The notes below the pieces were generated by a model. That model did no database searches, was not told where the DNA came from, and was given only the letters and a program-made list of their open reading frames with translations. Positions 8,173 to 20,529 of a stretch of DNA of 41,348 bases are shown one piece after another; the first letter of the stretch is position 1, and the number at the start of each line of letters is the position of its first letter. The position numbers and the translations under genes are program-made. Origin of the DNA: Clostridiales bacterium (lineage in GTDB: Bacteria; Bacillota; Clostridia; Ch29); NCBI GenBank assembly GCA_012523075.1, contig JAAYJF010000161.1:1-41348 (forward strand), given 5' to 3'.

Positions 8173-8403
8173 TTCCTCTGTATTTATAAAAAACTCCTTT
8201 GGATACTGGACATCATATATTTTTGCTAATATCTTAATGGTTTTATCTCAAAATTCTGTTTTACAATAAACCTTGTTCTTTATTTGAAAACTATTACTAT
8301 CTGTGCGGTTTCCCATTACAATCCTCATGATGTCCCTTATGGTTTAGGGAGCTATAATTTTCGGTTTTATAGTTTTTGTCTAACTCTAACTATGGGGTTC
8401 TCA

Positions 8404-8601
8404 TTAATTTGCCCTGCCAATTACCCCACCATTATATAATAACACCAAACCCATCGCAGGTCCATTTTTGGAAAATCCTCTGTGCATCTTTCCTAACTTC
8501 AACCGGTATAGGGCTTCCACGTGGTTAGAATAAAGCTTCGCCCAATATGGAAAAAAATGTGCTTCAAAAGGACGGTAGCGGTAATCTGCTAGTTCTTCCC
8601 T
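8404..8601 (-). pseudogene. Unidentified 65-codon open fragment, possible gene remnant
   Basis: This minus-strand frame is open for 65 codons between stops but has no suitable start or ribosome site. Its peptide (containing YRPFEAHFFPYWAKLYS and later GKMHRGFSKNG) has protein-like composition with many aromatic residues. It lies downstream of the ThDP enzyme gene in the same direction. I do not recognise the family. It could be the remains of a fourth gene of that operon or chance coding. The rest of the 8173-8666 gap shows no gene and no clear terminator. Confidence 0.25.
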
Positions 8602-8666
8602 TTATCCGCCCTTTTGGCACATAAGTTAATACTAATCCAAGCCTCCACCGGCCTGAAACAATCCTA

Positions 8667-10343
8667 TTATACTTCAGACCAATTGCCTGCGGACTGAGAA
8701 GTATTTGTATCCTCAGGGTCTACTAATACGTCAAGAACTGCCGGCAGATTTTTCAGGCATCTTTCCAGAGCCGGTTTAAATTCTTCCGGCCGGGTAACTC
8801 TTTCAGCATAACATCCTAATGCTTCTGCTACACCGGCAAAGTCCTGTGGCTTAATAAAATCAACTCCTAAATAACGCTCATTATACTTATACATTTGCCG
8901 GATTTTAATATTTGAAAGGTTAAAATTATTAACTACTACCGATAAAACTTTTATATTCTCTCTTGCTATAGTTTCCAGTTCTTGCATCGTCATGGCAAAC
9001 CCACCATCTCCCGATATACTAACTACCTGTTTATCGGGATGGGCTAGTTTGACGCCAATCGCTCCCGGCAATCCGAAACCCATAGAACCACTGGTAGGAA
9101 ATATGAATGTACCGGGTACATATGTTTTAAAATACCATGATGTCCATGATGCAAAGTTCCCTGAATCTAAAACAACATACGCATCCCTTTCCAATGTTTC
9201 CCGCAGGTCCTTTAGCAATCTGCCATGGCTAATAGGGCATTTGTCAAAGTCCCTATTATACAAGTCGTCATCCCATTCTCTTACCAGTTTTGAAATAAAC
9301 TCTATGTTTTCAGTATTATACTGTTTGTCTGTTGCCCCTTCTTTTAAAACATCCAATAAGCATCTTACTCCAGCTTTACAATCTGATACTATTCCAACTG
9401 ATACAGGATAAATTTTACCGATAACCCTTGGATCGATATCGATATGTATCAGCTTCTTTCCTGCGAAATCCATATTATAGGTATCAGTCGCAAACTCCGA
9501 AAATCTGCAACCTATTGCCAAAACTACATCGGCCCATTTAAACGCTTTGCTTGACGCTTTCACCCCGGTAACACCTGTTGGCCCAACATACAAATAATGG
9601 TCTTCAGGAATAGGTTTTTTTCTGTACGTTGTAGCCATTGGCATAGAGAATAACTCTGCTAATTCCACCACTTCTTTTGATGCTCCCGCTTGCAAAACTC
9701 CCCCACCTGCGATTATCATAGGCCTTTTTGCTTTTAGTATTATTTCAGCCGCCTCTCTAATGCTGGCCGGATTAGGAAAAATATCATATCTACAGAAGTA
9801 CTGTTGTACGTTTTCAAGTTCACTTATATCAATATCAATTTTCTCTTTAAAGAAGTTGGCAGGAATAGACAGATGAACAGGACCAGGTCTCCCTGACTGC
9901 GCAATCCTGAAGGCTTCTCTTAAATATTCCGGAATTCTATTTGCAGTCGGTACTGAAGCCGACCATTTGGTTATTGGTTTAAAAACCGATACAAGGTCAA
10001 CTTCTTCAAAACAGTCTCTCCCTTTGAATGCTGTGCTTACATCGCCTGAAATTGCAATTACAGGTGTCGATTCTATAAACGCTGCTGTTATTCCGTTTAC
10101 CAGATTTGTTGCCCCGGGACTTTTTGTCGCCATACAAACCGACGGTTTTCCTGTGGCCCTTGCATATCCATGGGATATGAATGCCGCCGCCTGTTCATGC
10201 CTCACCAGTATTACTCTCATACCCGGATCGTCATAACAGGTATCAAGTATCTCCATCAGGCCTCCACCCGGAATTGTACTTATGAAATTAACTTGGTTTT
10301 GTTTGAAAAATGATACTACAAACTCAGGGACGCTTATATTCAT
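8667..10343 (-). CDS. ThDP-dependent enzyme, acetolactate synthase-like (substrate unknown)
   Basis: A 558-residue protein with the three-domain layout of the acetolactate synthase/POX family: an N-terminal pyrimidine-binding domain with catalytic Glu50 in VRHEQAAAF, a central domain (~190-340), and a C-terminal ThDP-binding domain with the GDG...NN motif (Gly445-Asp-Gly, Asn472-Asn473). Family members join or cleave 2-oxo acids or related C-C bonds. No regulatory ilvN-like subunit and no ilvC follow, and the gene is in an operon with a TRAP-TAXI transporter under a sigma-54 promoter. This argues for catabolism rather than branched-chain amino acid synthesis. A sulfoacetaldehyde acetyltransferase, sulfo- or phosphonopyruvate decarboxylase-like or 2-hydroxyacyl-CoA lyase-like role is possible, but none can be chosen from sequence alone. 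ATG 10343 (7 nt after GGAGG) is preferred to the ATG at 10349. Confidence 0.85.
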   Translation of the reverse strand: MNISVPEFVVSFFKQNQVNFISTIPGGGLMEILDTCYDDPGMRVILVRHEQAAAFISHGYARATGKPSVCMATKSPGATNLVNGITAAFIESTPVIAISGDVSTAFKGRDCFEEVDLVSVFKPITKWSASVPTANRIPEYLREAFRIAQSGRPGPVHLSIPANFFKEKIDIDISELENVQQYFCRYDIFPNPASIREAAEIILKAKRPMIIAGGGVLQAGASKEVVELAELFSMPMATTYRKKPIPEDHYLYVGPTGVTGVKASSKAFKWADVVLAIGCRFSEFATDTYNMDFAGKKLIHIDIDPRVIGKIYPVSVGIVSDCKAGVRCLLDVLKEGATDKQYNTENIEFISKLVREWDDDLYNRDFDKCPISHGRLLKDLRETLERDAYVVLDSGNFASWTSWYFKTYVPGTFIFPTSGSMGFGLPGAIGVKLAHPDKQVVSISGDGGFAMTMQELETIARENIKVLSVVVNNFNLSNIKIRQMYKYNERYLGVDFIKPQDFAGVAEALGCYAERVTRPEEFKPALERCLKNLPAVLDVLVDPEDTNTSQSAGNWSEV

Positions 10344-10354
10344 TATCATGCCTC

Positions 10355-12241
10355 CTAAGCATCAGTCGTTTTTATTGCATTGGAGCTGTTCACTGCTCTT
10401 CTCTTGTAAATGAAAATTACCAATCCTAAAGCAAGACCAATAATATCAGTAAATGGCTCAGGGGTAACCAATAACAATCCACCTATAAGTAAAAGCAATC
10501 GCTCTGCTTTACGCAGCTCCACTAATAGCCATCCCCTGAACCCACAGGTAATTAAAACCAAACCTACGAGAGCTGTTAATATTGGAACAATATTATGAAT
10601 AAAAGGCCCGTATAATAATAACCCTTCTTCATAGGCGAAAACAAATGGAATAATAAAACCGGTAATACCCAATTGTAATCCCATTAAGGCTGTTCTGGTT
10701 TGGCTTCCTCCGGAGATTCCGGCGGCAGTATATGAAACGGTAGCTACAGGGGGAGTTAACCCGGCAGTCATACTGAAGAAATAACAGAACAAATGGGAAA
10801 CCAGTATTGGTAATCCTATTTTCGTCAGCACCGGTGTTAGCAATATTGCAATTATTATATAAGAAGCGACCGCATTTACTCCCATTCCAAGTATCATAGA
10901 AGCCATTGCAGTTAATACAAGGGCAATGAATAAGTTCCCGCTGGCAATCCAACTTACAAGAGAAGCAAATTTAAGACCTAATCCTGTAACGGATACCACA
11001 GCCACTATAATTCCTGCAGCGGCACAGGCAACTGAAACGACCAGGCAAGTCCTGCCACCAGCTTCAAACCCCTCAATAATCTCCTTGATGCCCATTCGGG
11101 TGCTTGGCTTGAACCATGATAACACTATCAAAGATATTATCGCATAGAAGGCCGCTTTCATGGGTGAGAAACCCATTATTAAGCTGCCAAGCAAAACTAT
11201 CAGAGAAATTACATAGTAATATCCTTCTTTTAATACTTCTCTAGCTCTTTTCTTGGATTGACTTTCCATCGGTCTAAGGTCCCTTTTTATAGCTTCGATA
11301 TGAACATTTAAGTACACGACTAAATAATACAGAACGGCTGGAACTAAAGCCCTATAGCATATTTCTATATATGGCGTATTTGTAATTTCAGCCATCAGAA
11401 ATACCGATGCACCCATTACGGGTGGTAGCACCTGTCCGCCCACAGAGGCAGCAGCTTCAACACCACCTGCAAAGTCTGCATCATAACCCATCTTTTTCAT
11501 TAAAGGAATAGTGAAAGCCCCTGTGCCTGCAACATTGGCCACAGGACTTCCGTTTATCATCCCCATGAAGGCACTTGCGATTACAGCTGTTTTAGCAGGA
11601 CCCCCAATTTTTTTGCCTGTTAAACTTGTTGCAAGGTCCGAAAAAAATTCTCCACCACCCGATTTATTAAGAAACGCAGCAAAAATTACAAACATTATTA
11701 TATAAGTGGATGCAACTCCAATGGGTGAACCAAGTATTCCTCTCAACGAACTATACATATTGCTTATAATTATGCTGGTACTGAACTTTGGATGTCCTAG
11801 TGCTCCCGGAATCAGGTTTCCGAAATACAGATACAATAGCATAAATATAACGACACATGTTAAAGGTATCCCTAACATTCTTCTAACCGCCTCTAGTATA
11901 AGAACTACAATCACTGCATATGCGAGAATATCGTATATGAGAGGAGACCCTTGTCGCAACTGAATTTCCATAGCATTCGGAATAATATAAAATACCATAC
12001 ATAGTATAGCGACTATAGCTAATACATTAAATATTACCGATATCTTATTAAACCCTTTTTCCTGTTTTGTCCAGCCCGTTGTCAAATAAACCAACAACAG
12101 GACCCCTAACAAATGAATTGCCCTATGCTTCCAAAGCCCTGGCATGCCAAAATATCCTGTGAAAAAATGATAAAGCGCGAAAGCTGTTGCAATAACGGCA
12201 ACTATTGTTTTTTTATATTTAAGAACCAGCTCATTATCCAT
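10355..12241 (-). CDS. TRAP transporter permease, fused 4TM/12TM (DctQM) subunit
   Basis: A 628-residue polytopic membrane protein combining the small (DctQ-like) and large (DctM-like) TRAP subunits, as usual for TAXI-type TRAP systems. About 16 hydrophobic helices are visible. Blocks such as NGSPVANVAGTGAFTIPLMK, FAGGVEAAASVGGQVLPPVMG and FFSMTAGLTPPVATVSYTAA are characteristic of the M domain. It would import a small, probably anionic, substrate using an ion gradient, with the binding protein encoded just upstream. The ATG at 12241 follows GGAGGTGA. It lies 59 nt after the binding-protein gene and 11 nt before the ThDP enzyme, so the three form one operon. The substrate cannot be read from the sequence. 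Confidence 0.92.
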   Translation of the reverse strand: MDNELVLKYKKTIVAVIATAFALYHFFTGYFGMPGLWKHRAIHLLGVLLLVYLTTGWTKQEKGFNKISVIFNVLAIVAILCMVFYIIPNAMEIQLRQGSPLIYDILAYAVIVVLILEAVRRMLGIPLTCVVIFMLLYLYFGNLIPGALGHPKFSTSIIISNMYSSLRGILGSPIGVASTYIIMFVIFAAFLNKSGGGEFFSDLATSLTGKKIGGPAKTAVIASAFMGMINGSPVANVAGTGAFTIPLMKKMGYDADFAGGVEAAASVGGQVLPPVMGASVFLMAEITNTPYIEICYRALVPAVLYYLVVYLNVHIEAIKRDLRPMESQSKKRAREVLKEGYYYVISLIVLLGSLIMGFSPMKAAFYAIISLIVLSWFKPSTRMGIKEIIEGFEAGGRTCLVVSVACAAAGIIVAVVSVTGLGLKFASLVSWIASGNLFIALVLTAMASMILGMGVNAVASYIIIAILLTPVLTKIGLPILVSHLFCYFFSMTAGLTPPVATVSYTAAGISGGSQTRTALMGLQLGITGFIIPFVFAYEEGLLLYGPFIHNIVPILTALVGLVLITCGFRGWLLVELRKAERLLLLIGGLLLVTPEPFTDIIGLALGLVIFIYKRRAVNSSNAIKTTDA

Positions 12242-12300
12242 TTAGTGTCACCTCCAGGTTTTACATAGGGGGGGTTGATACCATCAACCCCCGTTATAAA

Positions 12301-13350
12301 TTATTCTATTGCTCCAACTTCTTTCCAGAACTTTGCAGCACCGGGATGAAGGGAATCAGCAGGAAAACCTTTTGCAAATTCCTCGGGGCCACCTGAAAAG
12401 AATTCTTCCAGTTGAGGTGCCAGCTCTATCCATTTATCTATATTGTTATAGATTGACTTTGCTATTTCATATACCAGGTCTTCGGGAACGTCTATGTTTG
12501 TTCCTACCATAGTATAATACTCAATAACAGGCACTGGCTGGTCCTGCCCTTTATACACTCCCGCTTTTAGCGTCCCCGGTTGAAATGATGGTATCTCTTC
12601 ACATAGCGTTTCAACCCAAGGTCCTTCTATAGGTATTACCCTCAAGGGAATACTGGTTTCTATCTGCAGGGCGGACTTATGGGGACTATTATACGGTGCG
12701 CCAAGGAAAAATGCATCAAGATGCCCGTCACCCATCATTTCTGCAAACCGGCCATATTGTTCATAAATAATTTCTCCGCCGTTGTTAAGAATGTCTTCGT
12801 AAGAGTAGCCCGCACCGTTAAAGATGGCTCTAAAGGATGATTCAAGGCCACTTCCCACTTCCCCTGGGGAAAACTTCAGCCCTTTAGCCTTTGCCAAATC
12901 GTCTATCGTATAAATATCACTATCGGCCCTGACAAGTATGTACTGCATCCCTGTTGACAGCCTGCAAACAGCTCTAAGCTTTTCTAATTTTTCATTTTCA
13001 AAAGTACCTTGGCCTCTTATAGCATCAATAAACTCGTTTGACCAGAAAGTCCCAAGATGAGTTTCTCCCCTATTAACCGTCCTGAGATTTTCTTGGGCGG
13101 CACCTTCTATACCAGTTACAGTCAAACCTTCTATATCCCTGGGAAGATGCTCGCACATAGCCGCCATAACTGAATAAAACGTACCTCCCTGAGGACCCGA
13201 TGTAATAATTATCGAATCCAATTCCGGTTTCTGTTCACCTGTCCCTTGCTCAGATGTTGATGAGGATTGCGAGCATCCTGCTAAAACAAGCACCAACGTC
13301 AATAGAACAAAAACTAGTTTGAAGAACACACTCCTTCTTTTTAAATTCAT
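12301..13350 (-). CDS. TRAP transporter solute-binding lipoprotein, TAXI family
   Basis: A 349-residue lipoprotein. A basic start (MNLKRRS) and hydrophobic stretch lead to the lipobox LAGC, giving Cys26 as the lipidated residue, followed by a Ser/Thr/Glu-rich tether. The mature part has the TAXI family features (IIITSGPQGGTFYSVMAAMCEHL near residue 50; the QENLRTVNRGETHLG block). It captures a substrate outside the membrane and passes it to the fused TRAP permease. The start is ATG 13350, 7 nt after GGAGG; the ATG at 13356 is too close to the ribosome site. It is the first gene of the sigma-54-controlled operon. TAXI proteins have been linked with glutamate, 2-oxoglutarate and other carboxylates, but most ligands are unknown. 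Confidence 0.93.
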   Translation of the reverse strand: MNLKRRSVFFKLVFVLLTLVLVLAGCSQSSSTSEQGTGEQKPELDSIIITSGPQGGTFYSVMAAMCEHLPRDIEGLTVTGIEGAAQENLRTVNRGETHLGTFWSNEFIDAIRGQGTFENEKLEKLRAVCRLSTGMQYILVRADSDIYTIDDLAKAKGLKFSPGEVGSGLESSFRAIFNGAGYSYEDILNNGGEIIYEQYGRFAEMMGDGHLDAFFLGAPYNSPHKSALQIETSIPLRVIPIEGPWVETLCEEIPSFQPGTLKAGVYKGQDQPVPVIEYYTMVGTNIDVPEDLVYEIAKSIYNNIDKWIELAPQLEEFFSGGPEEFAKGFPADSLHPGAAKFWKEVGAIE

Positions 13351-13504
13351 AACCATACCTCCTTAGTTTTTATTCCGTAGGCTTTTATATAGCATAAGGC
13401 TAAAGCCTTAAACGGGCAGAGTAAAGTTAAATTATAGTATCAAAAACTCTAAGTAAATATACTATTTCACAAATAGCATTATTGTTCTGTTATATTATTA
13501 ACAG

Positions 13505-13521
13505 TTGCAAATACTATGCCA
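13505..13521 (-). promoter_or_regulatory. Sigma-54 (-24/-12) promoter of the TAXI-TRAP-ThDP operon
   Basis: The minus strand reads TGGCATAGTATTTGCAA, with GG (-24) and GC (-12) separated by exactly 10 bp, close to the consensus TGGCAC-N5-TTGCA. The expected transcript start is near 13495, leaving a leader of about 145 nt before the binding-protein ATG. A near-identical element precedes the aldehyde dehydrogenase gene. Confidence 0.8.
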
Positions 13522-13539
13522 GATTATTTCAATAATCTG
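13520..13539. promoter_or_regulatory. 20-bp palindrome overlapping the -24 element
   Basis: CAGATTATTTCAATAATCTG is a palindrome with perfect 9-bp arms around TC. It touches the -24 GG of the sigma-54 promoter. The half-site AATAATCTG also occurs at 15918-15926 upstream of the aldehyde dehydrogenase promoter, and CAGATTATT at 460-468 near birA. It may be a repressor or activator site. The remaining 13540-13954 stretch holds no convincing gene. Confidence 0.4.
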
Positions 13540-13954
13540 AATTATCAGCTAACTGGCATTGCCACATAAGCATGAGCGACGCAAATAATTTTTTAGCACT
13601 GGCATGACAAATGATAATTACTTTATCCCGTAGTGTTGATAGCTTTAACAATGCACCGTTTCATAATGTGACGCCTTTTTTAAATGGCAACATTTCTTAA
13701 TTTCTATTTTTTATCTGCGGTTATCTTATTCCTTTTCTTTCAACCGTTTATTAGCAATTGCCATATATTAAATAATGCTTTAACATTTACGGGATTTCTA
13801 ATGAGATTTCATCTTTATAATAGGCGAATCACCGGGGAGAAAGAACGCCAAACAATCGGACCACAAAAAAGTATTTCAACAGTCCTTGCATCTGATCATT
13901 GAGATCGAAGCCGGTTCCCCGAATGATTTAGAATAAGCCACAATAATTCTCTAA

Positions 13955-14152
13955 TATATATAACGCACTAATAATATTACATTCCTTTATCTGTCATTTA
14001 AGAGGGCGGAGCCCGAAGAATCCGACACGCCTTTTTGTCGTTCTGAACGTAGTGAAGAATCTTTTGGAGGCAGACATAAGATCCTTCGCTCAGGATGACA
14101 AAGGGGTCGCTCAGGATGACAGTTGTGTAAAGTTTTTATTACGTTATATATA
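13955..14152. repeat. MITE-like element family 1, copy 1
   Basis: A 198-bp element with TATATATAACGCA at the left end and the inverted CGTTATATATA at the right end. The interior has TCATTTAAGAGGGCGGAGCC, CCGAAGAATCC and GATCCTTCGCTCAGGATGACA-type words. The same arrangement occurs at 27904-28070 and 29458-29771. It encodes no protein and lies between the aldehyde dehydrogenase terminator and the TAXI promoter region. Confidence 0.7.
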
Positions 14153-14171
14153 GCTAAAAATGTGTGTGAAA

Positions 14172-14226
14172 ATATTGCCAAATCTGCTCTGCTCTAATGC
14201 ATGGAACAGGGCAAATCTGGCAATAT
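14172..14226 (-). terminator. Hairpin downstream of the aldehyde dehydrogenase
   Basis: ATATTGCCA (14172-14180) and TGGCAATAT (14218-14226) pair as 9-bp arms, with additional inner pairing (GCTCTG/CAGGGC). On the minus strand the hairpin is followed by ATTTTC. It is 60 nt after the gene's stop codon. The loop is long, so efficiency is uncertain. Confidence 0.45.
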
Positions 14227-14285
14227 AGTTAATTAATGTGCCTAGGCAGAATAAAGTTATCTTGCCAGCTGTTAGGTGCTTTATA

Positions 14286-15683
14286 TTAGTCGTTCATCAC
14301 ATCGCCAAACAATTCTTCATCGGTTGGTATAACGGGATCGAAGTACCTCGAAACCATAGTAGTGTTAATTAAGTGTTTCCAGGTAATGTTCTCGGAAGAA
14401 ATGTTCCCTCCCCAGGTTCCACAACCAAGGCTAGTTGTGAAGGGCATTCCGTTGAACCAGTTTCCGGTATTGGCCAGCGCTTGGCCCTGGTTAACATTCA
14501 TGCGGCTTACCTTGGTATTAAGGGCTAGCTTCATTACGTGTTCTTCGTTAAAAGTATGAATCCCGCAAGAGTGTCCCGAACCCTGATACTTGGTAATTGC
14601 GTTTACTTTTTCTACAGCCTCGTCAAATTCGGCAAATTTATAGACAGTCATGACAACAGATAGTTTTTCGCCTGAGAATGGATATTCAGGTCCTACACCA
14701 TCTTCTTCCACCATTATGAATTTTGTGTCTTCATTAACGGTGATACCTGCTATATTTGCGATTACCTGAGCAGACTGTGCAACTATATCTCGGTTCAGAT
14801 GACCGTCTACCCACAAAGCCTTCTGAACCAGTTCCTTTTCTTTTGCATCACAAAGGTAGCCGCCTTCAGCCTTAAGGGCATCCAACAAATTGTTGTAAAT
14901 ATCCTTATGAACAATAATCGAGTTTTCTGCAGAACAACTGGTTGCTAGGTCAAAAGTTTTGCTCGCCCTTATTTTCATCGCAGCGTCTTTTATGTCAGCA
15001 TCGGCGTCTACAACAACCACAGCATTGCCTGCGCCTACCCCATAGGCAGGAGTGCCAGAGGAATAGGCTGCCTTAACAAGTCCTGATCCACCGGTAGCCA
15101 GAATTAAATCGCACTGCTTCATTAGTTCATTACTGGCTTCCATGGTAGGTTCTTCTATGGCTATAACCAAATCCTCAGGGGCACCATATTTTTTTAGAGT
15201 TTCCCTTGCATATTTGGCTACCAGCGCACAAGTTTTCTTTGAACGTGGATGGGGTGACAGTACGATAGCATTGCGTCCCTTTAGTGCATGGGCAATGTTA
15301 ACGGTCGGTGTCGCTGCAGGGTTTGTGCAGGGGGTGATGGCGCCGACTACCCCAACGGGTTTTGCTATCTTCATGGTTTGCTTTTCTTCATTGATTTCAA
15401 TTACACCAACGGTTTTTTGACCTTTCATATCTCTTACGGCACCCTTTGCCTTCGCCATAAGTTTTGCATACTTTGATTGATAATCGCCCATACGTGTTTC
15501 TTCAAATGCAAGTTTGCAAATTTCCTGGGCGGTATCTTCTTTTACAATATTCCATACAACAGCTTCCACCAACTTATCTACCTGTTCTTGTGTATAGTTG
15601 TCAATGGCTTCCTGAGCTTTTCTAGCCCTTTCGATAAGTTCCATAACATATTTCTGTGCAGATTGGTTCATATTATCTGTCAT
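14286..15683 (-). CDS. CoA-acylating aldehyde dehydrogenase
   Basis: A 465-residue protein of the acylating aldehyde dehydrogenase group (EutE / AdhE N-terminal-like). It oxidises an aldehyde with NAD(P)+ and CoA to an acyl-CoA, or the reverse. The family signature PVGVVGAITPCTNPAATP is at residues ~109-126, GVGAGNAVVVVDADADI at ~215-231, and the catalytic Cys250 sits in ATSCSAENS. The C-terminal GCGTWGGNISSENITWKHLIN segment is as expected. No alcohol dehydrogenase domain is fused. Acetaldehyde is the default substrate; the ATSCSxENS form also recalls acylating sulfoacetaldehyde dehydrogenases, but this is only a resemblance from memory. It is a single-gene unit with an ATG at 15683 after AAAGGGGA and a ~200-nt leader from a sigma-54 promoter. 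Confidence 0.88.
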   Translation of the reverse strand: MTDNMNQSAQKYVMELIERARKAQEAIDNYTQEQVDKLVEAVVWNIVKEDTAQEICKLAFEETRMGDYQSKYAKLMAKAKGAVRDMKGQKTVGVIEINEEKQTMKIAKPVGVVGAITPCTNPAATPTVNIAHALKGRNAIVLSPHPRSKKTCALVAKYARETLKKYGAPEDLVIAIEEPTMEASNELMKQCDLILATGGSGLVKAAYSSGTPAYGVGAGNAVVVVDADADIKDAAMKIRASKTFDLATSCSAENSIIVHKDIYNNLLDALKAEGGYLCDAKEKELVQKALWVDGHLNRDIVAQSAQVIANIAGITVNEDTKFIMVEEDGVGPEYPFSGEKLSVVMTVYKFAEFDEAVEKVNAITKYQGSGHSCGIHTFNEEHVMKLALNTKVSRMNVNQGQALANTGNWFNGMPFTTSLGCGTWGGNISSENITWKHLINTTMVSRYFDPVIPTDEELFGDVMND

Positions 15684-15734
15684 TTACAAACGTCCCCTTT
15701 CATTAAAGTAAAAGTATAAAGTACAGAGATGTAA

Positions 15735-15773
15735 TTAGCTGAAATAATTGGGCCTGTCAAAATCGTTAATCAT
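15735..15773 (-). other. Possible leader micro-ORF (12 codons)
   Basis: In the aldehyde dehydrogenase leader a strong AAAAGGAGGG site (about 15889 to 15898 minus 100, that is 15789-15798) precedes a short ATG frame encoding MINDFDRPNYFS. The site-to-ATG distance is long (15 nt), while a TTG-GGA-TGA frame at better spacing overlaps the ATG. It may be a leader peptide, or a relic ribosome site. Confidence 0.2.
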
Positions 15774-15884
15774 CCCAAGGTTTTCTGTCCCTCCTTTTAA
15801 AATCAATTGACATTGTTGCTGGCTCGATTTATTTCAAATATGCATCCCTGTCCCATAATTGTGTAGAAGCTCTATTCATAATGT

Positions 15885-15901
15885 TTGCAAACATTATGCC
15901 A
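15885..15901 (-). promoter_or_regulatory. Sigma-54 (-24/-12) promoter of the aldehyde dehydrogenase
   Basis: The minus strand reads TGGCATAATGTTTGCAA, with GG and GC separated by 10 bp. It shares TGGCATA-N4-TTTGCAA with the TAXI operon promoter, which points to common control by RpoN and an enhancer-binding protein. The half-site AATAATCTG lies just upstream at 15918-15926. Confidence 0.8.
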
Positions 15902-15977
15902 GTCATGAATGTTGAATAATAATCTGTTAAGCAAAGAAGGTTTGTCATATAGTATTATTGTCAGATTTACAGGAACA

Positions 15978-15994
15978 TGGCATAGGTTTTGCAA
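15978..15994 (+). promoter_or_regulatory. Divergent sigma-54 promoter (plus strand)
   Basis: The plus strand reads TGGCATAGGTTTTGCAA, again with exactly 10 bp between GG and GC. It faces away from the aldehyde dehydrogenase promoter, with only 76 bp (15902-15977) between the two. No intact gene follows; a decayed reading frame with ribosome site starts at 16047. Confidence 0.7.
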
Positions 15995-16046
15995 AATTAC
16001 ATAAAAATGCGCTCTGCAAACAGCAAGGCTATGGGGAGCTATAACT

Positions 16047-16432
16047 GTGAAAGTATACTCGCAGTGTTAATATTAATAAAACCGTTCGGGAACGGTCGTG
16101 GGAAATGTATCGCGAGAAATTATACATGGTATAATTCAAGAGCAGGATATGGAAGTAGTTGGCATAGGCATCAATTGAAAAGTTATAGATAATTATATAC
16201 TGTTAAAGAACTAAAATGTGCTATTGTACACAAGAAGCGTCGCAATATGTTACGCAATACTGTTTTAATCGTAAACACAACAAATATCTCGGAGACTGCC
16301 TGATATTATAGGTAACCGCGGGCGGCGGCATAATATCACCATAGAATTTGCTCTATCAACTTTCTTGAGCGGCATAACAGGGAGACACGCAGAAGGACGT
16401 AGGCTAACACCAATCAGGCTGAAACTTAAAAT
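16047..16432 (+). pseudogene. Decayed oxidoreductase-like gene (possibly dihydrodipicolinate reductase / diaminopentanoate dehydrogenase-like)
   Basis: A GGGGAG ribosome site (16033-16038) precedes a GTG at 16047 encoding MKVYSQ, then stops at 16068, 16074 and 16077. The same frame continues with the protein-like segment GTVVGNVSREIIHGIIQEQD followed by MEVVGIGIN, up to a TGA at 16176. This resembles the N-terminal Rossmann motif of DapB-like oxidoreductases (glycine motif, a helix, then DMELVG). Later, in other phases, VLLYTRSVAICYAIL and EGRRLTPIRLKLK also resemble that family, which would imply frameshifts and deletions. The location just behind the divergent sigma-54 promoter supports a former gene. 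The family assignment is tentative. Confidence 0.35.
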
Positions 16433-16466
16433 GGCCTTTTAGCTTAAATAGCCTCAAGACCATTTT
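16428..16466 (-). terminator. Hairpin downstream of ftsH
   Basis: AAAATGGCCTT (16428-16438) and AAGACCATTTT (16456-16466) pair over 11 bp in RNA (one G-U) with a 17-nt loop that can pair further. It lies about 85 nt after the ftsH stop. The following T-run is weak. The 16467-16551 stretch shows a second small hairpin (CCACC/GGTGG near 16492) but no gene. Confidence 0.4.
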
Positions 16467-16551
16467 ATCTGCAAACTGAGCCCACCCTTTTACAGGTGGA
16501 CTTTGTGTTCTGTCTGAGAAGCCCCCAAGGAACCTTCCCTGCTTTCTATAT

Positions 16552-19113: not shown

Positions 19114-20529
19114 CTACTCCTCTCCGATGGATAAGTGTAGTAATTCAATCCTAAGCACCTGCCCGGTATCCTTTGAAACCTTAAACCTTTCATCTATTCT
19201 ATACCCCGCTACCCAGACAATACCCATTTTATTTCTAACAATGGGTATTAAACCCCTGCTGCCCTTAGGAACCTTGGCATCAATAAAAAAGTCTTTCAGC
19301 TTTTTTGTACCGCCCATCCCAAGGGGAAGGAATCTATCCCCTTCCTTTCGCCCCGTGACAGCAAGATTCCTGCCAACCTTTTCAAAATCCAAGAAAGCCA
19401 GGCTATCGTCCGCCTCATTCCTTTCCTCTAAATAGGTATCAACGTCTACGACAAAGGCATCTATCGCTACTCCGATTTCGGGGATATGGGTTCTGCCGGG
19501 GACTGTAAGGGTATAGGTCCCCTTTATGCTACCTTTTTCAGGTTCTCCCCTGGCTATAAAAAACCGTCCGTATTCAACCCCCGCTACAAGGCCCCGCGGA
19601 AGATTGAGCCTTTTCCCCGTTTTTCCCGCCTCCAGCAGGCCACAGACCTGCCGTATGTGCGTAAGTTCCAGGTTGTCCACGTCCCCCAGAAGGTGCTCTA
19701 CCCCCTTGCGCAGCACCCTTCTTCTTAGGGCTGTATGTAGCCCTGAAAGGTCCTTTATACAAAATTCAAGCCTGTCGGTACCGATACCCGATGCAAGCTC
19801 GAGAAATTTTTCACCGGCCACACGACCCAGGCAGTCGTCTTCCTCTCTTAGTATATTTGCCATATCCAGTATGGCCCGATCTATATTGTTGTTATATTTA
19901 TCCCTCAAATAGGGCAAAAGCTCCAGTCTAATCCTGTTTCTGAAGTACACAGGCATAAAATTGGTTTTATCGGTCACCGGGCCAAGTTCATTTTTGGCGC
20001 AGTATTCCTCAATAAGCGACCGGGACACCTCCAAAAGGGGCCTTATGATGCTGCCCCTTACGGGTTTTATCCCGCCAAGACCCGCAACTCCCGAACCCCT
20101 TATAAGCCTCATTAGCACTGTCTCCACCTGGTCGTCCAGGTTATGGGCTACCGCAATCTTGTTGAAACCTTTTTCCCGCATTACCCTGTTAAAAAGGTGG
20201 TACCTGGCCCTTCTGCCCGCCTGTTCCGGGGAAAGCCCTTCCCGGGCGGCCATCCTTGGCACATCAACGGTTTCCGCAACGCAGGGTATACCCCTTTCAC
20301 GGCAGAAGTCCTCCACAAACCTGGCGTCTTTTTCCGCATCGCCGGGACGGAATCTATGGTTTAGATGGGCGCATACAAGCCGCAAATTATAGCGCTCCCC
20401 AAACCTGTAAAGAAGATGAAGCAGCGCGATGGAGTCGGGCCCCCCCGAAACTCCTACCACAATTCCATCTCCGTTCTGTATCATATCGTATTCTTCTATA
20501 GTTTTTTGAAAAATATCCTCTATATTCAA
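19114..20529 (-). CDS. tilS: tRNA(Ile)-lysidine synthetase
   Basis: About 471 residues. The enzyme attaches lysine to C34 of tRNA-Ile(CAU), so that it reads AUA. The N-terminal PP-loop ATPase domain has SGGPDS at residues 28-33. It is followed by the RRARYHLF and AHNLDDQVETVLMRLIRGSG blocks, a linker domain, and the C-terminal TilS domain (GDRFLPLGMGGTKKLKDFFIDAKVP). The chosen start is a TTG at 20529 after an AGGGATAGGG stretch. An ATG at 20565 would add 12 residues and overlap the kinase gene by 17 nt; either is possible. None of the four tRNAs in this window is its target. Confidence 0.95.
   Translation of the reverse strand: MNIEDIFQKTIEEYDMIQNGDGIVVGVSGGPDSIALLHLLYRFGERYNLRLVCAHLNHRFRPGDAEKDARFVEDFCRERGIPCVAETVDVPRMAAREGLSPEQAGRRARYHLFNRVMREKGFNKIAVAHNLDDQVETVLMRLIRGSGVAGLGGIKPVRGSIIRPLLEVSRSLIEEYCAKNELGPVTDKTNFMPVYFRNRIRLELLPYLRDKYNNNIDRAILDMANILREEDDCLGRVAGEKFLELASGIGTDRLEFCIKDLSGLHTALRRRVLRKGVEHLLGDVDNLELTHIRQVCGLLEAGKTGKRLNLPRGLVAGVEYGRFFIARGEPEKGSIKGTYTLTVPGRTHIPEIGVAIDAFVVDVDTYLEERNEADDSLAFLDFEKVGRNLAVTGRKEGDRFLPLGMGGTKKLKDFFIDAKVPKGSRGLIPIVRNKMGIVWVAGYRIDERFKVSKDTGQVLRIELLHLSIGEE

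Follow-up and report, generated by a model that had tools for sequence, protein, structure and literature searches.

Putative sigma-54 promoters of near-identical sequence in an acquired gene island of a Clostridiales bacterium

The whole stretch of DNA analysed here (41,348 nt, hereafter the window) contains a low-GC block carrying genes for a transporter, a ThDP enzyme and an acylating dehydrogenase. The block and its genes are as follows.

8200-16516: island, low-GC block of 8.3 kb, replacing the ftsH-mutase interval of a congener
8667-10349, minus strand: ThDP enzyme of the acetolactate synthase superfamily, 560 aa, three domains
10355-12241, minus strand: TRAP transporter fused permease, 628 aa (TIGR02123, 590.8 bits, cut-off 320.65)
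12301-13356, minus strand: TAXI-family TRAP solute-binding protein, 351 aa (TIGR02122, 188.5 bits, cut-off 84.35)
14286-15683, minus strand: CoA-acylating aldehyde dehydrogenase (ALDH), SauS-like, 465 aa (NF047625)

All four reading frames were intact at full length. The best NCBIfam match of the ALDH was SauS (NF047625), which it matched over its full length, yet its score (570.7 bits) did not reach the curated cut-off of 600, nor did those of two close ALDH relatives (543 and 554.6 bits). No sulfonate genes were recognised in the island. The ThDP enzyme scored 445 bits against the biosynthetic acetolactate synthase (TIGR00118, cut-off 538.35) and 345.4 bits against Xsc (TIGR03457, cut-off 676.4), hence below both cut-offs, and its best solved relative was BbmA (302.9 bits). 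Contig C174 of the same genome (L184:3830-7150) showed a second acylating ALDH, about 44% identical, directly adjoining a ThDP enzyme (about 34%), an arrangement in favour of a joint role for the two proteins; no sigma-54 site was recognised at this pair. The island genes may therefore serve to import a 2-oxo acid, which would be decarboxylated to an aldehyde and then converted to an acyl-CoA.

Homology to congener G003, whose FtsH is 96% identical, ended at 16517 and picked up again at 8199, and the GC content was mostly 0.36-0.43 inside this block compared with mostly 0.44-0.54 outside. Between ftsH and methylmalonyl-CoA mutase, G003 has a 132-aa frame, which we take from reading its sequence to be thioesterase-like; a remnant of this frame was sought in the window and left no trace. 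The ALDH was absent from the five other genomes of the family. An accessory island, as the original prediction had named this block, agrees with the absence of the ALDH in the family, the defined junctions and the lower GC. The content of the ftsH-mutase interval varied in every family genome examined (window 8200-16516; L169:3730-4601; L170:6862-16458; L171:11516-16633): G003 has the thioesterase-like gene alone, G001 a different insertion with the gene of an enhancer-binding protein (EBP) and several others, and G004 a CoA-transferase-like and a permease-like gene. The interval thus looks like an exchange hot spot. A repeat-like stretch was also seen at 14040-14130 (ATCCTTCGCTCAGGATGACA); in translation it is similar to spurious frames at other places in the genome, e.g., L028:3677-3985.

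The pattern TGGCAT-N4-TTTGCAA (TGGCATNNNNTTTGCAA) has three exact matches in the window, all intergenic and within 2.5 kb.

13505-13521, minus strand: putative sigma-54 core TGGCATAGTATTTGCAA, before the TAXI-TRAP/ThDP enzyme operon, predicted start ~13495
15885-15901, minus strand: putative sigma-54 core TGGCATAATGTTTGCAA, before the acylating ALDH gene, predicted start ~15875
15978-15994, plus strand: putative sigma-54 core TGGCATAGGTTTTGCAA, divergent, 76 bp from the ALDH promoter, predicted start ~16004
15877-15898: perfect 22-bp palindrome CATAATGTTTGCAAACATTATG, overlapping the ALDH promoter core

The distance from GG to GC was 10 bp in all three elements, and the cores are close to TGGCAY-N5-TTGCW. 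The predicted starts were derived from the −12 positions. They were identical at 13 of 17 positions, each ended in TTTGCAA, and they were more alike than the remaining promoters of the genome. A pattern search of the genome (2,035,137 bases) gave only these three exact matches, while base composition led to an estimated ~0.001 matches per window and <0.1 per genome for a pattern that was, as a caveat to this estimate, drawn up after the sites were seen. The three elements and their 10-bp spacing, which the original prediction had described, were thus confirmed by the exact matches and the genome scan. A wider pattern with up to three mismatches gave 23 matches in the window (16.0 ± 4.1 expected), so the signal lies in the three exact sites alone. 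A gene in the right orientation stands behind the 13505 site (solute-binding protein, start 13356) and behind the 15885 site (ALDH, start 15683). Copies of a mobile repeat were ruled out by inspection, because the flanks of the three elements were dissimilar beyond the core.

Two promoter matrices, both trained without the window sites, were then applied to the window. With the matrix from ALDH promoters of relatives, the three sites ranked 1, 2 and 3 (22.7, 18.6 and 18.3 bits), and the next-best match reached 13.5 bits. The matrix based on EBP-adjacent promoters within the genus ranked them 1, 3 and 4; the interloper, at 19360, lies within a coding frame. Both matrices therefore bear out the claim that no other gene unit of the window has such an element. 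Some random windows also yielded single sites of equally high score, so one site alone is not decisive and the weight rests on the clustering, near-identity and intergenic placement of the three.

The genome encodes one RpoN (470-aa frame, 216.3 bits), and the sigma-54 reading, which had been staked in advance on the presence of an rpoN gene, was therefore left standing. Six EBPs were found in the genome, each above 225 bits (229.7-240.2). None of the six genes lies within the window, in accordance with the expectation that the activator would be encoded elsewhere. Four of the six adjoin promoters of the same form:

TGGCATGATATTTGCG: EBP-adjacent promoter, preceding butyrate kinase genes
TGGCATGAAAATTGCG: EBP-adjacent promoter, preceding a methionine/cystathionine lyase-like gene
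TGGCACAAATATTGCT: EBP-adjacent promoter, preceding an aminomutase gene and a TAXI-TRAP operon
TGGCACACAACTTGCG: EBP-adjacent promoter on contig C132

The butyrate kinase and lyase names were given from reading the N-termini, not from a family search. In two congeners, EBP genes likewise stood beside sigma-54 promoters of this form.

The promoter comparison between genomes concerned the ALDH side and covered 73 loci encoding ALDH relatives, 11 of them at ≥70% identity and 62 below. A sigma-54 site was present within 500 bp upstream of the ALDH in 6/11 relatives at ≥70% identity and in 0/62 below 70%; in the downstream control (500 bp), none of the 73 loci showed one. An EBP gene was present in the locus for 7/11 of the closer relatives and for 0/62 of the others. 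The order EBP, sigma-54 site, ALDH was observed in Anoxynatronum, a Clostridiaceae MAG, a Clostridia MAG and a Calditrichales genome, and in most of those Clostridia a class III aminotransferase then follows the ALDH. The Marinisporobacter locus L043, another of the 11, has its EBP gene and a sigma-54 site at the start of the gene run to which the ALDH belongs. Sigma-54 control is thus conserved for this ALDH in its close clade, and this comparison gives the strongest evidence. Together with the rpoN gene and the EBP-adjacent promoters in the genome and its congeners, it lends good support to the predicted identity of the three elements as sigma-54 promoters rather than mere lookalikes, from which their activity may be inferred.

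The neighbours of the ALDH relatives were aminotransferases, a BCCT transporter or a DctM-type permease, not the transporter and ThDP enzyme of this island. Neither the ThDP enzyme nor the permease had a close relative in 391 sampled genomes of the class, nor was the linked cluster found there, and plasmid matches stayed below 40% identity. Upstream of the ALDH sigma-54 site in L045, L047, L048, L051 and L055, TGAATCA/TGATTCA dyads were seen by eye, without statistics, and could possibly be the binding site of the relatives' EBP; dyads of this type were not found near the window promoters.

Behind the plus-strand promoter, the ~550 bp at 16000-16551 showed no recognisable gene and no frame above 67 aa. 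They gave no similarity to related-locus proteins in a translated comparison and no Rfam family, and the RNA fold was unremarkable (z = −1.16), so a structured RNA is not supported. With nothing recognisable behind it, this promoter cannot be counted as a gene of the regulon. The simplest and most likely account is that the divergent promoter is the leftover of a lost gene. There is also a slim chance that the EBP of the island was lost and a resident EBP with other targets took over its promoters, the divergent one now yielding a sigma-54-dependent non-coding transcript toward the 3′ end of ftsH.

The −24/−12 core tells which sigma factor is used, not which EBP acts; therefore, a single regulon is likely but unproven. 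Sharing of one EBP is the most economical reading, since the similarity among the three cores exceeds that of the genome's other promoters and all three sit in a single foreign block. A search for an enhancer site shared by the window promoters found none; activator sites would be expected ~100-250 bp upstream of the cores. TGT-N11-ACA dyads occurred once upstream of the TAXI promoter (13634-13650) and not at the ALDH promoter, with 19 in the whole window. Each of the six EBPs already stands beside another target operon, gene cluster or neighbours. Of the predicted single regulon, the sigma-54 class, the island and the outside activator were upheld; a shared activator is probable rather than demonstrated, given the missing common site and the other targets of the six EBPs.

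Individual EBPs were considered as the island regulator. The one on contig C145, lacking in two congeners, initially looked promising for that reason but was rejected. Its C-terminus is identical to an EBP tail on contig C27, where a sigma-54 site with threonine aldolase and a symporter lies downstream, and it has a 70% ortholog in another family with the same neighbours. The EBP on contig C132 is likewise missing from both congeners, yet a promoter of its own adjoins it. The EBP of the ALDH relatives is not among the six (best 35-43% identity). Contigs C145 (L031:1-130) and C27 (L036:3700-4068) were seen to share one EBP gene end and then diverge; C145 then reads into what resembles the beginning of a transposase, which may mean that strains carrying and lacking an insertion are mixed in the assembly.

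We consider it fairly probable that this is an imported catabolic island with two gene units, each started by sigma-54, and with an EBP acting in trans, most simply one for all. The TAXI-TRAP transporter and ThDP enzyme would form one unit and the CoA-acylating ALDH the other, each transcribed from its own sigma-54 promoter. RpoN-containing RNA polymerase would be held at the −24/−12 core as a closed complex, which an ATP-driven EBP sensing the substrate or an intermediate would open. The EBP gene, often beside the ALDH promoter in relatives, would here have been left behind or displaced. As no EBP gene adjoins the island promoters, some EBP encoded elsewhere would have to act in trans, and one EBP for all promoters is the simplest assumption. 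Such control has precedent: most clostridial EBPs adjoin their targets, and 38 of 263 are not clustered with them (PMC6615313), so control in trans is possible.

The promoters may be genuine sigma-54 promoters with the TAXI operon and the ALDH under different EBPs, as two separate units. This is the less probable arrangement, though a plausible one, since other EBPs in this genome have cores just as good, the window promoters share no detected upstream site, and the ALDH relatives have other neighbours. The near-identity of the cores (13/17, all TTTGCAA-ending), their uniqueness in the genome and their place in one foreign block speak against it. The EBP may instead have been lost on transfer or later, leaving an orphaned regulon with promoters that now fire little or not at all. 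In favour of this, the EBP that is often adjacent in relatives is absent here, the EBPs found all have other targets or neighbours, and the island includes long stretches without coding sequence and one promoter that has no gene behind it. We still regard such an orphaned state as unlikely: the four full-length frames suggest selection for expression, the EBPs known to lie away from their targets (PMC6615313) provide a way out, and an EBP could be missing from an assembly of 185 contigs.

It is very unlikely that the elements serve as operators for some other DNA-binding protein, for example a repressor that recognises the TTTGCAA palindrome. The palindrome over the ALDH element would fit such a protein, being the only perfect one of its length in the window, with none in 148 kb of the genome's other loci (~190 kb in total). 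However, the other two elements lack an extended palindrome, the orientation and GG-N10-GC spacing of all three fit sigma-54, and the relatives keep the sigma-54 core beside EBP genes, those of their promoters that were inspected having no such palindrome. As for chance matches, single sites of this score do occur in some random windows, but three exact intergenic sites in 2.5 kb and nowhere else in 2.03 Mb, together with the conservation at the ALDH, reduce this explanation to next to nothing.

The preferred reading, an island controlled in trans, was compared with the sigma-54 regulons described for Clostridiales by comparative genomics. In these, most EBPs control one operon and others two to six, and the sensor domains are PAS, GAF, ACT or PrpR_N (PMC6615313). 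The published promoter consensus, TTGGCATNNNNNTTGCT, the metabolic and transport targets and EBPs with such sensor domains are common to both (PMC6615313). Table 1 of that study holds neither a CoA-acylating ALDH operon nor a TRAP transporter operon, whereas the island has both types, and most of its EBPs adjoin their targets, unlike in the island (PMC6615313). The understanding of sigma-54 promoters is unchanged by these results. They add a clade of CoA-acylating ALDHs to the sigma-54 metabolic targets of anaerobic Firmicutes, with a clean comparative signal, i.e., promoter and EBP in the close ALDH clade and absent outside it. The island is also a concrete case of what becomes of an acquired activator-dependent cluster when its activator is not adjacent. 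TAXI-TRAP operons beside an EBP gene and a sigma-54 site were observed in the same genome (contig C91) and in congener G002 (contig C4); the window TAXI-TRAP genes, in contrast, have no adjacent EBP and are not orthologous to these, the permease being ~40% identical to that of G002.
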